This document shows, piece after piece, positions 17,948-23,722 of a stretch of DNA of 64,000 bases. Both the position numbers and the translations under genes were made by a program. The DNA comes from Erysipelotrichaceae bacterium. Its GTDB lineage: Bacteria; Bacillota_I; Bacilli_A; Erysipelotrichales; Erysipelotrichaceae. The notes under the pieces are model-generated. The model worked only from the letters and a program-made list of their open reading frames with translations, had not been told where the DNA came from and did no database searches. The stretch lies in assembly GCA_017431825.1 (NCBI GenBank), contig JAFRKI010000016.1, forward strand, positions 62,001 to 126,000. Reading direction: 5' to 3'. Every line of letters begins with the position of its first letter. Within the stretch, counting starts at the first letter, position 1.

Positions 17948-18020
17948 AATGAAAATATTTTCATTCATTGAAAAAAGATGACATTTTTTATTGACACGTT
18001 ATTTTCATTCAAACTATAAT
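17948..18020 (+). promoter_or_regulatory. Consensus promoter of the opp operon with palindrome
   Basis: Perfect TTGACA (17991-17996) and TATAAT (18015-18020) are separated by 18 bases, 30 bases before the oppA start. Upstream, 17948-17965 is a perfect 18-base palindrome containing GAAAATATTTTC. Its half ATTTTCATTC (17957-17966) recurs inside the promoter spacer at 18001-18010, which suggests a regulator bound at both sites. The dyad is not the CodY box, whose half sites have the opposite orientation. Confidence 0.65.
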
Positions 18021-18050: not shown

Positions 18051-19658
18051 ATGAAAAAGTTGTTAACTGTTTTATTAGCACTACTGATTCTGGTCGGTAT
18101 GACCGCTTGCTCCGGCAAGAAGGGTGGCGATGACGCTGCTGATGTCGTTATCTTCCAGAATGAAAACGTACGAAAAGCAATGATATATGCAATTGACAGA
18201 GACACTCTCGTCAAATCATTGAACGATGGTTCTATCGCAGCCGAAGGCATCATTCCTTGGAAACTGGCTGCCAATCCGGTAAGCGGCGCTGACTTCCGTG
18301 AAGATCAGGGCTCACTGGTAGGCTATGATGTCGACAAGGCCAAGGAATACTTTGCGAAGGCCTGTGAAGAACTGGGTAAGGACACTCTTACCATCAACCT
18401 GCTGTACGGTACCAACGAAGGTGACTCCGTAATCAAGGCTGCTGAACAGGTAGCATATTATCTTGAAGAAGTCGGCTTCGAAGTAAATCTGGTCGCCAAG
18501 CAGAAAAAAGAGAGACTTGCCTTAATGACCGATGGTGACTACGATGTAGCTCTGACCCGTTGGGGTCCTGACTATGCCGATCCTCAGACTTACATGGATC
18601 TGTTCGTAAGCACCAATACTTCCAACAACTCCGGCCGATACAACTCTGCCGAATACGATGCCAACGTAGCCGCTGCTGAAGCAACTACCGATATGGCTGA
18701 AAGATGGCAGTACTTCCTGGCTGCTGAGAGAAACCTGGTAGCTGATGATGCCGCTGATATCCCTGTATTCCAGGCCGGCGGTGCCATGATCATCAGACCT
18801 GGTGTAACCGGTATCCAGTTCCACTCAGCTGCTGTCGATAACTACCGTCATGTTGCCGGTAAGGAAGCTGTTACGCTTGTAACCAACACGGATATCATTT
18901 ATCTTGATAACCAGGTTGCTACCGATGGTACTTCCTTCATCGCCGATACGATGTTCATGGCCGGTCTGACCGAGCTTGAAGAAGGCGGCAACTGGAAACT
19001 CGATCTGGCTGAAAGCTATGAAGTAAATGACGATGCTACAGTATACACCTTCAAGATCAGAGACGATGCTTACTGGGTAACCAAAGACGGTGACGTCTAT
19101 GCTCCGGTAACTGCTTATGACTTTGAATTTGCCTGGAACAGACTGGTATCTGAAGAGCTGGCTTCCGAATACGGATGGTGGCTGGATACCATGTCAGTAG
19201 AGAGCTGGAAGGCTGTCGACGACAAGACCTTCGAAGTAACGCTGACTGCACCTTCAGGCATCTTCATGGGCTGTCTGGCATTCCCAAGCACATTCCCGAT
19301 CAATGAAGAATTCCTGACTGCCCAGGGCGATCAGTATGCAACCAGTGCTGACACCGTACTGGCCTGCGGACCGTTCATTCTCGATTCCTGGACTCCTGGT
19401 TATTCTTATGAATTCAAGAAGAATGACATGTACTATTTCGCTTCTGACTATGTAGCCGACGGTGGTGCTGATAAGGTCGTCTTCAGAGTACTGGAAGATA
19501 CTCAGACTGCCTTAATGGAATATGAAGCCGGCAATATCGATACTGTAATCCTTTCCGGTGAACAGGTCGATGCCAACAAGAATGTCGACGGCTATGTTGA
19601 CCGTCTGCAGGGCTATCTGTTCTACTTATCAGTTAATATCAACCATTACGGTGAATAA
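18051..19658 (+). CDS. oppA: Oligopeptide-binding lipoprotein (family 5), circularly permuted
   Basis: Substrate-binding lipoprotein of the Opp importer encoded behind it; 535 aa with lipobox cysteine at residue 20. The order of the two halves is exchanged. Residues about 35-270 match the C-terminal half of normal OppA/DppA proteins: NENVRKAMIYAIDRDTLV, then TINLLYGTNEG, RWGPDYADPQTYMDLF, RYNSAEYD and the usual C-terminal end near residue 268. Residues about 272-535 match the N-terminal half: VTLVTNTDIIYLDNQVATDG, YTFKIRDDAYW, VTAYDFEFAWNRL, LEDTQTALMEYEAGNID and YLFYLSVNIN. In a normal protein the last residues here would continue directly into the first mature residues, so the cut lies at the hinge between lobes. 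The gene has a consensus promoter and a good ribosome binding site; it is in one open frame. Confidence 0.9.
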   Translation: MKKLLTVLLALLILVGMTACSGKKGGDDAADVVIFQNENVRKAMIYAIDRDTLVKSLNDGSIAAEGIIPWKLAANPVSGADFREDQGSLVGYDVDKAKEYFAKACEELGKDTLTINLLYGTNEGDSVIKAAEQVAYYLEEVGFEVNLVAKQKKERLALMTDGDYDVALTRWGPDYADPQTYMDLFVSTNTSNNSGRYNSAEYDANVAAAEATTDMAERWQYFLAAERNLVADDAADIPVFQAGGAMIIRPGVTGIQFHSAAVDNYRHVAGKEAVTLVTNTDIIYLDNQVATDGTSFIADTMFMAGLTELEEGGNWKLDLAESYEVNDDATVYTFKIRDDAYWVTKDGDVYAPVTAYDFEFAWNRLVSEELASEYGWWLDTMSVESWKAVDDKTFEVTLTAPSGIFMGCLAFPSTFPINEEFLTAQGDQYATSADTVLACGPFILDSWTPGYSYEFKKNDMYYFASDYVADGGADKVVFRVLEDTQTALMEYEAGNIDTVILSGEQVDANKNVDGYVDRLQGYLFYLSVNINHYGE

Positions 19659-19682: not shown

Positions 19683-19716
19683 ACCGGAGCGATTGTAACT
19701 GATCGCTCCGGTTTTA
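19683..19716 (+). terminator. Terminator or attenuator between oppA and oppB
   Basis: Stem ACCGGAGCGAT / ATCGCTCCGGT (19683-19693 and 19702-19712) with an eight-base loop and a TTTTA tail. Its place inside the operon would give more binding protein than permease transcript. Confidence 0.85.
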
Positions 19717-19739: not shown

Positions 19740-20675
19740 ATGAGAAAATATATCATAAAAAGAGTACTGATATCCTTAGCTACGCTTTTTGTTATTTTGC
19801 TGGTGCTGTTTATACTTATGGACCTCATGCCTGGTACACCGTTCAACGATGAAAAGCTTACGGAAGCACAGAAGACACTGCTGTATGCCAAGTACGGTCT
19901 GGACAGACCGCTGCTTACGCGTTTCTTCCTGTATGCCAAAAACATGCTGAAAGGTGACCTGGGGGTCTCATATGCGATCAATAAAAACTTTGCTGTTAGT
20001 GACATGGTAAAGGACCGTCTGGGAATATCCATTGCGGTAGGCGGCATGGCCATGCTGATCGGAACGGTTTTCGGACTGATCCTTGGCATCCTGGCTGCGC
20101 TCAACCACAATTCCTGGATCGATAATCTGTGTTCTGCCATTTCAGTAATAGGTGTCAGCGTACCGTCCTATGTCTGTGCACTTTTATTGTGTTATTTCAT
20201 TGCCTACAGGCTGGGCTGGCTGCCGATACTATATAACGTCGAACAGCCGTTCATTTCGCTTATTCTGCCGGCGATAGCCTTAAGCGTGTCGCCTACGGCC
20301 AATATCGCCCGTTTCACCAGAAGTGAGATGATCGACGTCCTCAACTCGGACTATATCCTCCTGGTACAGTCCAAGGGCGTCAGGAACTGGAAGATGATCA
20401 TCACGCACGTGCTCAGGAATGCACTCATTCCGGTAATCACCGTCATGGGTCCGATCCTGGTAAACCTGCTTACCGGTTCCAGTGTCATCGAGAAGATCTT
20501 CGGTATCCCGGGCATCGGCCGACTGATGATAACGGCCATTCAGGAAAACGACTACAACGTCACCATCGCCTGCGCCTTCGTCTATTCGGTAATGTACATC
20601 GTGATGATGCTGTTCGTGGATATCCTTTACGGAATCATCGACCCGCGTATCCGTATCACAAAGGAGGAGAAGTAA
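19740..20675 (+). CDS. oppB: Oligopeptide ABC transporter permease OppB
   Basis: The 311-aa inner membrane permease. It has the family start KYIIKRVLISLATLFVILL, the periplasmic-side LMPGTPF motif, six hydrophobic helices and the EAA-loop region ending GIPGIGRLM, which contacts the ATPases. It is placed after the oppA attenuator and followed after one base by oppC. Together OppB and OppC form the translocation pore for peptides delivered by the binding protein. Confidence 0.95.
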   Translation: MRKYIIKRVLISLATLFVILLVLFILMDLMPGTPFNDEKLTEAQKTLLYAKYGLDRPLLTRFFLYAKNMLKGDLGVSYAINKNFAVSDMVKDRLGISIAVGGMAMLIGTVFGLILGILAALNHNSWIDNLCSAISVIGVSVPSYVCALLLCYFIAYRLGWLPILYNVEQPFISLILPAIALSVSPTANIARFTRSEMIDVLNSDYILLVQSKGVRNWKMIITHVLRNALIPVITVMGPILVNLLTGSSVIEKIFGIPGIGRLMITAIQENDYNVTIACAFVYSVMYIVMMLFVDILYGIIDPRIRITKEEK

Positions 20676-20676
20676 G

Positions 20677-21690
20677 ATGTCAATGTATGATCATGAGTTT
20701 CAGTCTAACGACTTCGAATTTGCGCATGCGGCCGGCGAAAAGCTGATCGACCGTAACTATTCGGCAACTTCCTATGCCAAGGACGTCTGGAACAACTTCA
20801 AGAAGAATAAAGGTGCCCTGGTAGGAGCCGTAATAATCCTCATCATCGTCATCATGGCCCTTATCGGTCCGAGTATGAACGAGTTTACCTATAAGCAGAT
20901 CCACGGCGGACAGGAATGTCTGGTACCGCGTATTCCGGGCCTGGAAAAGCTCGGCATAGCCGACGGCTGGCATAACGGCGTCGACCAGTATGCGGAAAAG
21001 GGCGCCAAGGACGTTTACTACTGGTTCGGATCCGATACACAGGGACGTGATATCTGGACCCGTGTCTGGTCAGGAACCAGAGTATCGCTGATCATTGCCT
21101 TGGCGGCCGTTCTGGTCGATATCGTAATAGGCATGGTCTATGGTCTGGTGTCGGGCTATTTCGGAGGCATGGTGGACAGCGTCATGCAGAGGTTCGCCGA
21201 GATCCTGAACGGCATACCGACTCTGGTCATCGTTACCCTTTTGGGTATGGTCTTACCGGCCGGCATCACTTCCATCATCTTCGCATTGATGCTGACGGGC
21301 TGGATAGGCATGGAAAGGATAGCCCGTGCCCAGGTCCTTAAAGTAAAGGAGCAGGAATTCGTCCTGGCATCAAGGACGCTTGGTGCCTCCAAGTTCCGTC
21401 TTATATTTTCCGAGATCCTGCCTAATATCCTGGGTCAGGTCATCGTAACGAGTATGTTCTCGATCCCGAATGCCATATTCCTTGAGGCATACTTATCATT
21501 CTTAGGGTTAGGTGTTCCAGCTCCTATGGCATCGCTTGGTTCACTGGTATCTGACGGATACAAGTCTATGACGACCTTCCCTCATATACTTATCATCCCG
21601 GTCGTAGTCATGGCTGTCCTGATGCTGTGCTTCAACCTGTTTGCCGATGGTCTGAGGGATGCCTTTGACCCTAAGATGCTGAACAAGTAA
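20677..21690 (+). CDS. oppC: Oligopeptide ABC transporter permease OppC
   Basis: The 337-aa second permease, with an N-terminal cytoplasmic tail of about 45 residues, the first helix at VGAVIILIIVIMALIGPSM, the GSDTQGRDIWTRVWSGTRVSL stretch (split by one substitution from the common LGTDxxGRD motif), and the EAA loop ASRTLGASKFRLIFSEILPN. The start is preceded by AAAGGAGGAG. It pairs with OppB. Confidence 0.95.
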   Translation: MSMYDHEFQSNDFEFAHAAGEKLIDRNYSATSYAKDVWNNFKKNKGALVGAVIILIIVIMALIGPSMNEFTYKQIHGGQECLVPRIPGLEKLGIADGWHNGVDQYAEKGAKDVYYWFGSDTQGRDIWTRVWSGTRVSLIIALAAVLVDIVIGMVYGLVSGYFGGMVDSVMQRFAEILNGIPTLVIVTLLGMVLPAGITSIIFALMLTGWIGMERIARAQVLKVKEQEFVLASRTLGASKFRLIFSEILPNILGQVIVTSMFSIPNAIFLEAYLSFLGLGVPAPMASLGSLVSDGYKSMTTFPHILIIPVVVMAVLMLCFNLFADGLRDAFDPKMLNK

Positions 21691-21702: not shown

Positions 21703-22797
21703 ATGACAGTTAAAAGAAATCAGAACGACAGAGTCTTATACATACGTGATCTTAACATCTCATTCAAGACCGCCTATGGCACCGTAAGAGCCATCAGAGG
21801 CGTCAGGCTGGACCTGTTTAAGGGCGAGACCATTGCGATAGTCGGTGAATCGGGTTCAGGCAAATCCGTTACCGTCAAGACGATAATGGGCATCTTAGAC
21901 TCCAACGGAGTCATCGATTCCGGTCAGATCATCTACCGCTATAAGGACGAAGAAGGCAATCAGCAGGAGGTCGATCTGGTCAAGATGAGCCAGAAAGACA
22001 TCAGGTACAAATTCTGCGGCAAGCACATCGCCATGGTCTTTCAGGATCCGATGACTTCCCTCGATCCGACCATGACGGTAGGCAAGCAGATCATGGAACC
22101 GATGAGAGAACACTACAAGATATCCAGAGAAGAGGCTAAGCAAAGGGCCATGGATCTTCTGGAAGAAGTAGGCATCGACAATCCCGATAAAAGATTCAAA
22201 CAGTATCCGCATGAATTATCCGGAGGCATGAGACAGAGGGTGGTCATCGCCATCGCCCTGGCCTGCGATCCGGACGTGCTGATCTGTGATGAACCGACGA
22301 CGGCTCTGGACGTTACCATCCAGGCCAAGATCCTTGAACTGATCAAGGACATTCAGAACAAGAAAGGCATATCGGTCATCTACATCACCCATGACCTGGG
22401 CGTAGTTGCCAAGGTCGCGGACTATGTGGCCGTCATGTATGCCGGAAGAATAGTGGAAAAAGGCAAGATCAACGAAGTCTTCTATGATCCTCGTCATCCG
22501 TATACCTGGGGATTATTGTCATCCATGCCGGATACGGATACCAATTCAAGGAGGCTCTTCGCCATTCCGGGCTCTCCTCCTAACCTGATGGAAAGAGTGG
22601 AAGGCGATGCCTTTGCGGTAAGGAATCCGTATGCGCTCAATATCGACTTCGTTGAGGAGCCGCCGCAGTATGACGTAGGCGGACAGCACCGTGTTGCCTC
22701 ATGGCTCTCAGATCCGAGAGCACCTAAGGTGGAACTGCCGGTGGAACTGGTTGAAAAACTGGAAAAGATGAAGAAGGAGGCTGATATAAATGACTGA
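21703..22797 (+). CDS. oppD: Oligopeptide ABC transporter ATPase OppD
   Basis: The 364-aa ATPase of the importer. Walker [13 protein letters not shown] is near residue 48, the Q loop at MVFQDPMTSLDP, the signature LSGGMRQRVVIAIAL, Walker B VLICDEPTTALD and the switch histidine in IYITHDLGV. The C-terminal oligopeptide-transporter extension is present (from HPYTWGLLSSMPD onwards), though without the usual row of cluster-binding cysteines. The last eight bases overlap the start of oppF. Confidence 0.95.
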   Translation: MTVKRNQNDRVLYIRDLNISFKTAYGTVRAIRGVRLDLFKGETIAIVGESGSGKSVTVKTIMGILDSNGVIDSGQIIYRYKDEEGNQQEVDLVKMSQKDIRYKFCGKHIAMVFQDPMTSLDPTMTVGKQIMEPMREHYKISREEAKQRAMDLLEEVGIDNPDKRFKQYPHELSGGMRQRVVIAIALACDPDVLICDEPTTALDVTIQAKILELIKDIQNKKGISVIYITHDLGVVAKVADYVAVMYAGRIVEKGKINEVFYDPRHPYTWGLLSSMPDTDTNSRRLFAIPGSPPNLMERVEGDAFAVRNPYALNIDFVEEPPQYDVGGQHRVASWLSDPRAPKVELPVELVEKLEKMKKEADIND

Positions 22798-23722
22798 GAC
22801 AAGACAACCTCTGCTTCATGTGGAAAACCTGAAACAGCACTTCAAGATCTCAAGAAAGTTCACGACCAAGGCCGTTGACGGAATAAGCTTCGACATATAT
22901 GAAGGTGAAACGTACGGTCTGGTAGGTGAATCAGGGTCGGGCAAGTCGACAACCGGAAGGGCTCTGATCAGGCTCTATGATCCGACTGACGGCAAGATCA
23001 TCTTCGACGGTCATGACATCTCCGGCAAGCTTTCCAAGGAAGATGAAAGATTCCTCAGGACCAACATGCAGATGATATTCCAGGACCCGATGGCCTGTCT
23101 TAACCCGAGAAGAAAGGTATCACAGATCATCGCCGAAGGACTGGAGATACATCATATCTGCAAGTCCAAGGAAGAAGTCGAAGAAAGAGTCAACAACATC
23201 CTCGACAAGGTCGGATTATCCAAGGAACAGGGAACCAGATTCCCGCATCAGTTCTCCGGCGGCCAGAGACAGAGAGTCGGCATCGCCAGAGCACTGGTCA
23301 TGAATCCGAAGCTCGTCATTGCCGATGAATGCATCTCAGCTCTTGACGTATCCATTCAGGCTCAGGTCGTCAATATGATGAAGGACCTGCAGGATGAACT
23401 GGGTACCACCTATCTCTTCATTGCCCACGACCTTTCAATGGTCAAGTACATCTCCGACAGGATCGGTGTCATGCACTTAGGACATATCGTGGAGACCGGT
23501 ACGACCGATGAGATCTTCGAGAATCCGATCCATCCTTATACCAAGTCGCTGTTAAGCGCCATCCCTCATCCTAATCCGGTAGTGGAGAAGAAGAGAGTGG
23601 CCATCAGCTACGATAAGGACAAGGAAGGCGTCGATTATACCAAGGGAACCCAGCACTGGCTCAGCGATACGCACTATGTGCTGGCTACCGATGAAGAGTT
23701 CGAAAAGTGGAACAATAACTGA
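22790..23722 (+). CDS. oppF: Oligopeptide ABC transporter ATPase OppF
   Basis: The 310-aa second ATPase. Walker [14 protein letters not shown] loop [13 protein letters not shown], signature [15 protein letters not shown], Walker [13 protein letters not shown] (with Cys-Ile in place of the usual Pro-Val) and [10 protein letters not shown] are all visible, followed by [16 protein letters not shown], typical of OppF. It forms the heterodimer with OppD and closes the operon. Confidence 0.95.

Follow-up and report, generated by a model that had tools for sequence, protein, structure and literature searches.

An oligopeptide-binding lipoprotein gene (oppA) of a gut-dwelling Erysipelotrichaceae bacterium, located in the 64,000-nucleotide stretch of DNA analyzed here (the window), encodes its two canonical halves in swapped order. 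The explanation that best accounts for the evidence as a whole, and that we consider very probable, is a true natural circular permutation in an oligopeptide-binding lipoprotein of family 5 (cluster C) that serves as the substrate-binding subunit of OppBCDF. By a parsimony count, equivalent permutations at three cut sites have had at least eight independent origins in the Bacilli, with one reversal.

The window protein belongs to PF00496 (SBP_bac_5) with a score of 221.6 bits against a gathering cut-off of 32.4 (E = 2e-65), and its two matching stretches, both far above the cut-off, are out of order. The genome-wide Pfam search placed profile positions 212 to 367 first (G000:C11:80150-80626) and positions 3 to 210 second (80996-81646). 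A first-pass annotation of this DNA had proposed a circular permutation, and the reverse order of the halves bears it out: a single continuous, collinear match was not obtained, and by its profile order the protein is a permuted variant and not an ordinary family member. A profile of ordinary proteins (492 positions) reads 266 to 491 before 2 to 262, and structural matches are reversed as well, residues 23 to 261 corresponding to 298 to 533 of 6npo and residues 267 to 516 to 29 to 283. At residue ~271 (base 18861), where the annotation had located the junction, the joint NYRHVAGKEAVTLV connects, almost without a linker, the equivalents of SYRHIVIK (the ordinary C terminus in L006) and KTVVTVQAPTP (the mature N terminus). 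The new ends fall where the first hinge strand, YLFYLSVNIN, finishes.

The features of the gene and its operon are collected in Table 1. The consensus promoter, the signal peptide and Cys20 at the front, and the intact oppB, oppC, oppD, and oppF downstream agree with the suggestion that the operon is a working one, and the lipobox signal peptide and adjacency to oppBCDF in the sequence are those of family 5. The permuted gene is the operon's only oppA, and Cys20 is invariant among the aligned permuted proteins. The hairpin between oppA and oppB probably holds expression of the permease genes below that of the binding protein.

Table 1. Features of the permuted oppA gene and its operon (positions within the window)
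Feature	Positions	Strand	Remarks
Sigma-70 type promoter, TTGACA-18-TATAAT	17991..18020	+	12/12 consensus match; consensus match only
oppA open reading frame	18051..19658	+	535 aa, single open frame, ATG, good ribosome site
Signal peptide and lipobox LVGMTA-C20 (lipid anchor)	18051..18110	+	
Short linker, residues 21-30, from lipidated Cys to new fold start	18111..18140	+	
Canonical C-terminal half, residues 31-270	18141..18860	+	Lobe III and return to lobe I
Asp174 in WGPDY	18570..18572	+	Aligned with Asp of E. coli OppA WCADY (9rd1); invariant in alignments
Joint of NYRHV (ordinary C terminus) and EAVTLV (ordinary mature N terminus)	18843..18875	+	Almost no linker
Canonical N-terminal half, residues 271-531	18861..19643	+	Lobes I and II; last element is hinge strand YLFYLSVNIN
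New C terminus HYGE and stop	19644..19658	+	Cut site A
12-bp hairpin in oppA/oppB gap	19683..19712	+	Terminator- or attenuator-like; z = -3.5
oppB permease	19740..20675	+	PF00528
oppC permease	20677..21690	+	PF00528 and OppC_N
oppD ATPase	21703..22797	+	PF00005 and oligo_HPY
oppF ATPase	22790..23722	+	PF00005 and oligo_HPY

A survey of 36 genomes of the genus found a close oppA homolog in 21, of which 9, including the window genome, are permuted. The other eight (G001, G003, G016, G021, G027, G028, G031, and G034) carry the same junction, as the annotation had suggested relatives might, and match the window protein collinearly over its full length at 66 to 78% identity. The window comes from a 17-contig draft genome, most of the genomes compared are draft metagenome assemblies, and close relatives with the normal order exist, as would fit an assembly error that joined two ordinary oppA fragments in the wrong order. 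We treat such an error as ruled out, its probability being close to nil, because eight independent genomes give the full-length collinear match. Permuted genes in one frame also occur in six sister-genus genomes and seven genomes of other families, nearly all of the other permuted genes keep an intact signal peptide, and two lie in near-closed assemblies (G653, 2 contigs; G656, 1 contig). The gene order oppA-B-C-D-F is alike in permuted and ordinary genomes of the genus, and dN/dS among the permuted oppA genes is 0.07 to 0.13, indicating purifying selection. Collinear relatives, a conserved operon, and these ratios together identify the permuted oppA as an inherited, selected gene.

The survey for permutations covered the class Bacilli; every fetched open reading frame was scanned with the 492-position profile, made from ordinary proteins only, for domains in the wrong order. 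Permuted proteins were found in a Solobacterium metagenome genome (L007, 45% identity to the window OppA) and four further genomes of its genus, which form a second permuted clade in a sister genus, and elsewhere in the class, in part with other cuts. Cut A (profile position ~263) is shared by the window genus, the sister genus, family f19 (G446, G515, and G653), and G507; cut B (~341) is found in G136, G070, and G656, and cut C (~427) in G330 and G773. The first domain at cut C scores just 18 bits, although G330 and G773 concur and inspection by eye leaves the reading clear. All of the permuted oppA genes lie in opp operons, in some of which oppA is the last gene. Aligned with E. coli OppA, cuts A, B, and C fall at ~280, 360, and 447, all inside what we take to be domain III of that protein (271 to 486). 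The three cut points thus all fall within lobe III, across from the lobe that carries the ordinary anchor. The permuted OppA of G507 (L205:6415-8253) also bears an acidic repeat tail, (STDDE)n, beyond the new cut site.

Structure prediction, which the annotation had recommended, returned a single confident AlphaFold2 fold for the window OppA (pLDDT 91.6, pTM 0.86) and a similar result for the cut-B protein of G136 (pLDDT 89.2, pTM 0.85); the input included half-length rows of normal relatives, with which any consistent permutation might fold well. Foldseek superimposed only one half of the model, ~265 residues, on Listeria OppA at ~1.9 A, the signature expected of a permuted chain because Foldseek aligns in chain order. 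The termini of ordinary OppA proteins both lie in lobe I, near one another, and can therefore be joined with almost no linker and at little cost. Since the old termini meet in this way, the permuted chain would be expected to fold into the ordinary two-lobed peptide trap. The Asp of the E. coli WCADY motif, which holds the amino group of the peptide, aligns with Asp174 of the window protein, and the permuted OppA therefore probably still binds peptides. It would capture them and hand them over to OppBC as usual. That the protein is instead decayed, or serves some purpose other than transport, is highly improbable: we found no point in favor of this reading, and it is opposed by purifying selection, the conserved binding motif, and the position of the gene as the only oppA of an intact operon. 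The sole gross change in the permuted protein would be the position of the N-terminal lipid anchor. Every new cut lies in lobe III, and the anchor therefore shifts to the other lobe; the earlier claim that it had moved off lobe I is supported, the new N terminus emerging from lobe III beside the hinge.

In a tree of 57 proteins the two permuted clades were well separated, with ordinary proteins around each of them, and 4 changes were counted. In the largest tree, made with 94 proteins by a quick method, parsimony required nine changes, of which eight are permutations and one is a reversal. The deeper placements (G507, G656, f19, and cut C) are less sure than those inside the family of the window; a careful tree of 96 proteins, built before the last finds, gave seven. 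One ancient permutation, inherited or transferred and followed by many returns to the normal order, might be suggested by the recurrence of cut A at nearly the same residue in four separate clades and by the fact that one reversal does occur. We judge this unlikely. There are three different cut sites, the permuted genes follow the tree of their own operon in two genera, and a single origin needs many more changes than nine because normal relatives surround every permuted clade.

The reversal involves G002, whose OppA has the ordinary order yet is 76 to 82% identical to the permuted OppA of the window. In the independent oppBCDF tree, G002 groups with G000 and G001 within the permuted clade (support 100/97), and these data reject a grouping of the permuted genes without G002 (AU test, p = 0.00065); the oppA tree alone leaves the placement open (p = 0.06), and the combined data give p = 6.7e-9 for the reversal. 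The linker in the middle of the G002 protein, NINHSDTLVTYQNEN, lacks most of the longer linker that relatives of ordinary order have. It resembles the permuted C terminus (NINHYE) followed by the start that follows the permuted lipobox (SDDGETVVIYQNEN), in the manner of a scar. A second duplication and loss, acting on the permuted gene, would restore the ordinary order and leave such a linker.

The permuted gene most likely arose by duplication and subsequent loss. An in-frame tandem duplication of oppA would come first; the first copy would then lose its 5' part behind the signal peptide and the second copy its 3' part. Such permutation by duplication follows an established model that has been reviewed for saposin/swaposin and DNA methyltransferases (PMC3320104). 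The proposed route resembles those cases in its tandem duplication and subsequent loss of the outer parts; oppA differs in showing repeated events and a return among close orthologs of one operon, and in that intermediates were not found. This route was already put forward in the first-pass annotation. The starting point that it predicts exists in G117 (L176:227-3717), in the sister genus, that of the second permuted clade, where two ordinary oppA genes stand in tandem ~143 bases apart, but a fused, double-length N-C-N-C intermediate was sought among the fetched Bacilli open reading frames and not found. Long frames of 1172 to 1188 aa in G040 and G051 were considered as fused intermediates and rejected, being separate ordinary open reading frames. 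The junctions held no convincing repeats as a trace of recombination.

That all three cut sites lie in lobe III, away from the lobe with the usual anchor, raises the question of whether the permutation is adaptive, an anchor on lobe III improving capture or docking in thick-walled, often gut-dwelling bacteria. If lobe III is taken as ~42% of the chain and cuts as uniform along it, eight of eight would fall there about once in 1000, although the events number only eight and were counted post hoc. A role for tethering was likewise proposed by the authors who described TpMglB-2, discussed below (PMC4990184). Lobe III loops may, however, simply tolerate breaks, and the return of G002 to the normal order speaks against a strong advantage; we hold an adaptive role to be possible but rather doubtful. 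It seems fairly likely, more broadly, that OppA topology is evolutionarily switchable in the Bacilli, having been permuted at least eight times through three lobe III cuts, and reversibly, with the move of the tether either tolerated or selected.

Compared with ordinary OppA proteins (PF00496; Listeria 5kzt, B. anthracis 6npo, and E. coli 3tcf/9rd1), the window protein is of the same family by sequence in both halves and has the same operon, a predicted lipoprotein anchor, and the putative peptide-amine-binding Asp motif; it differs in its swapped halves, in its N terminus and anchor in lobe III, and in its C terminus at the hinge strand. The first-pass annotation knew of no natural permutation in this family, and in the open-access literature we likewise found no published family-5 permutation and no paper combining "circular permut" with "OppA." The closest published precedent that emerged belongs to a different cluster of binding proteins: TpMglB-2 (Tp0684) of Treponema pallidum, "Type Ic / Cluster Bc," is a tethered binding lipoprotein of an ABC importer that is naturally circularly permuted, of a type occurring in spirochetes and Gram-positive gut bacteria (PMC4990184). 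The window OppA, also a permuted, tethered binding protein, works alike without being a member of that type; TpMglB-2, as described there, is a cluster B glucose binder of another family, with another cut and a fourth hinge crossing (PMC4990184). The sequence and fold matches of the window OppA are to family 5 and not to the sugar-binding fold of cluster B (type I). Recurrence at more than one cut site and a return to the ordinary order, as seen for OppA, are not reported for TpMglB-2 in the passages of that description considered here (PMC4990184). What is new here is the permutation in family 5, its recurrence at three sites, and its reversal within a genus.

These findings bear on the study of permutation itself and on practical questions. 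As a rule, a natural circular permutation is observed a single time and between distantly related proteins. Here, orthologs of one operon gene in close species differ by permutation, with several cuts and a reversal, and the process can therefore be counted and reconstructed. The importance to an ABC importer of the side on which its lipoprotein is tethered becomes testable, and the permuted proteins offer natural templates for biosensors built on permuted binding proteins. Where an annotation pipeline requires collinear profiles, permuted genes may be split or misnamed.

Two further observations concern the genomes and frames examined. In G288 (L234:2663-7849), an open frame of 1729 aa has a family-5 binding protein as its last third (1229 to 1712). 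The separately named goat metagenome genomes L004 and L005 (L147 and L157) seemingly hold one and the same oppA-operon stretch, with identical match coordinates and identical oppBCDF, as might result from double binning of one strain or contig.
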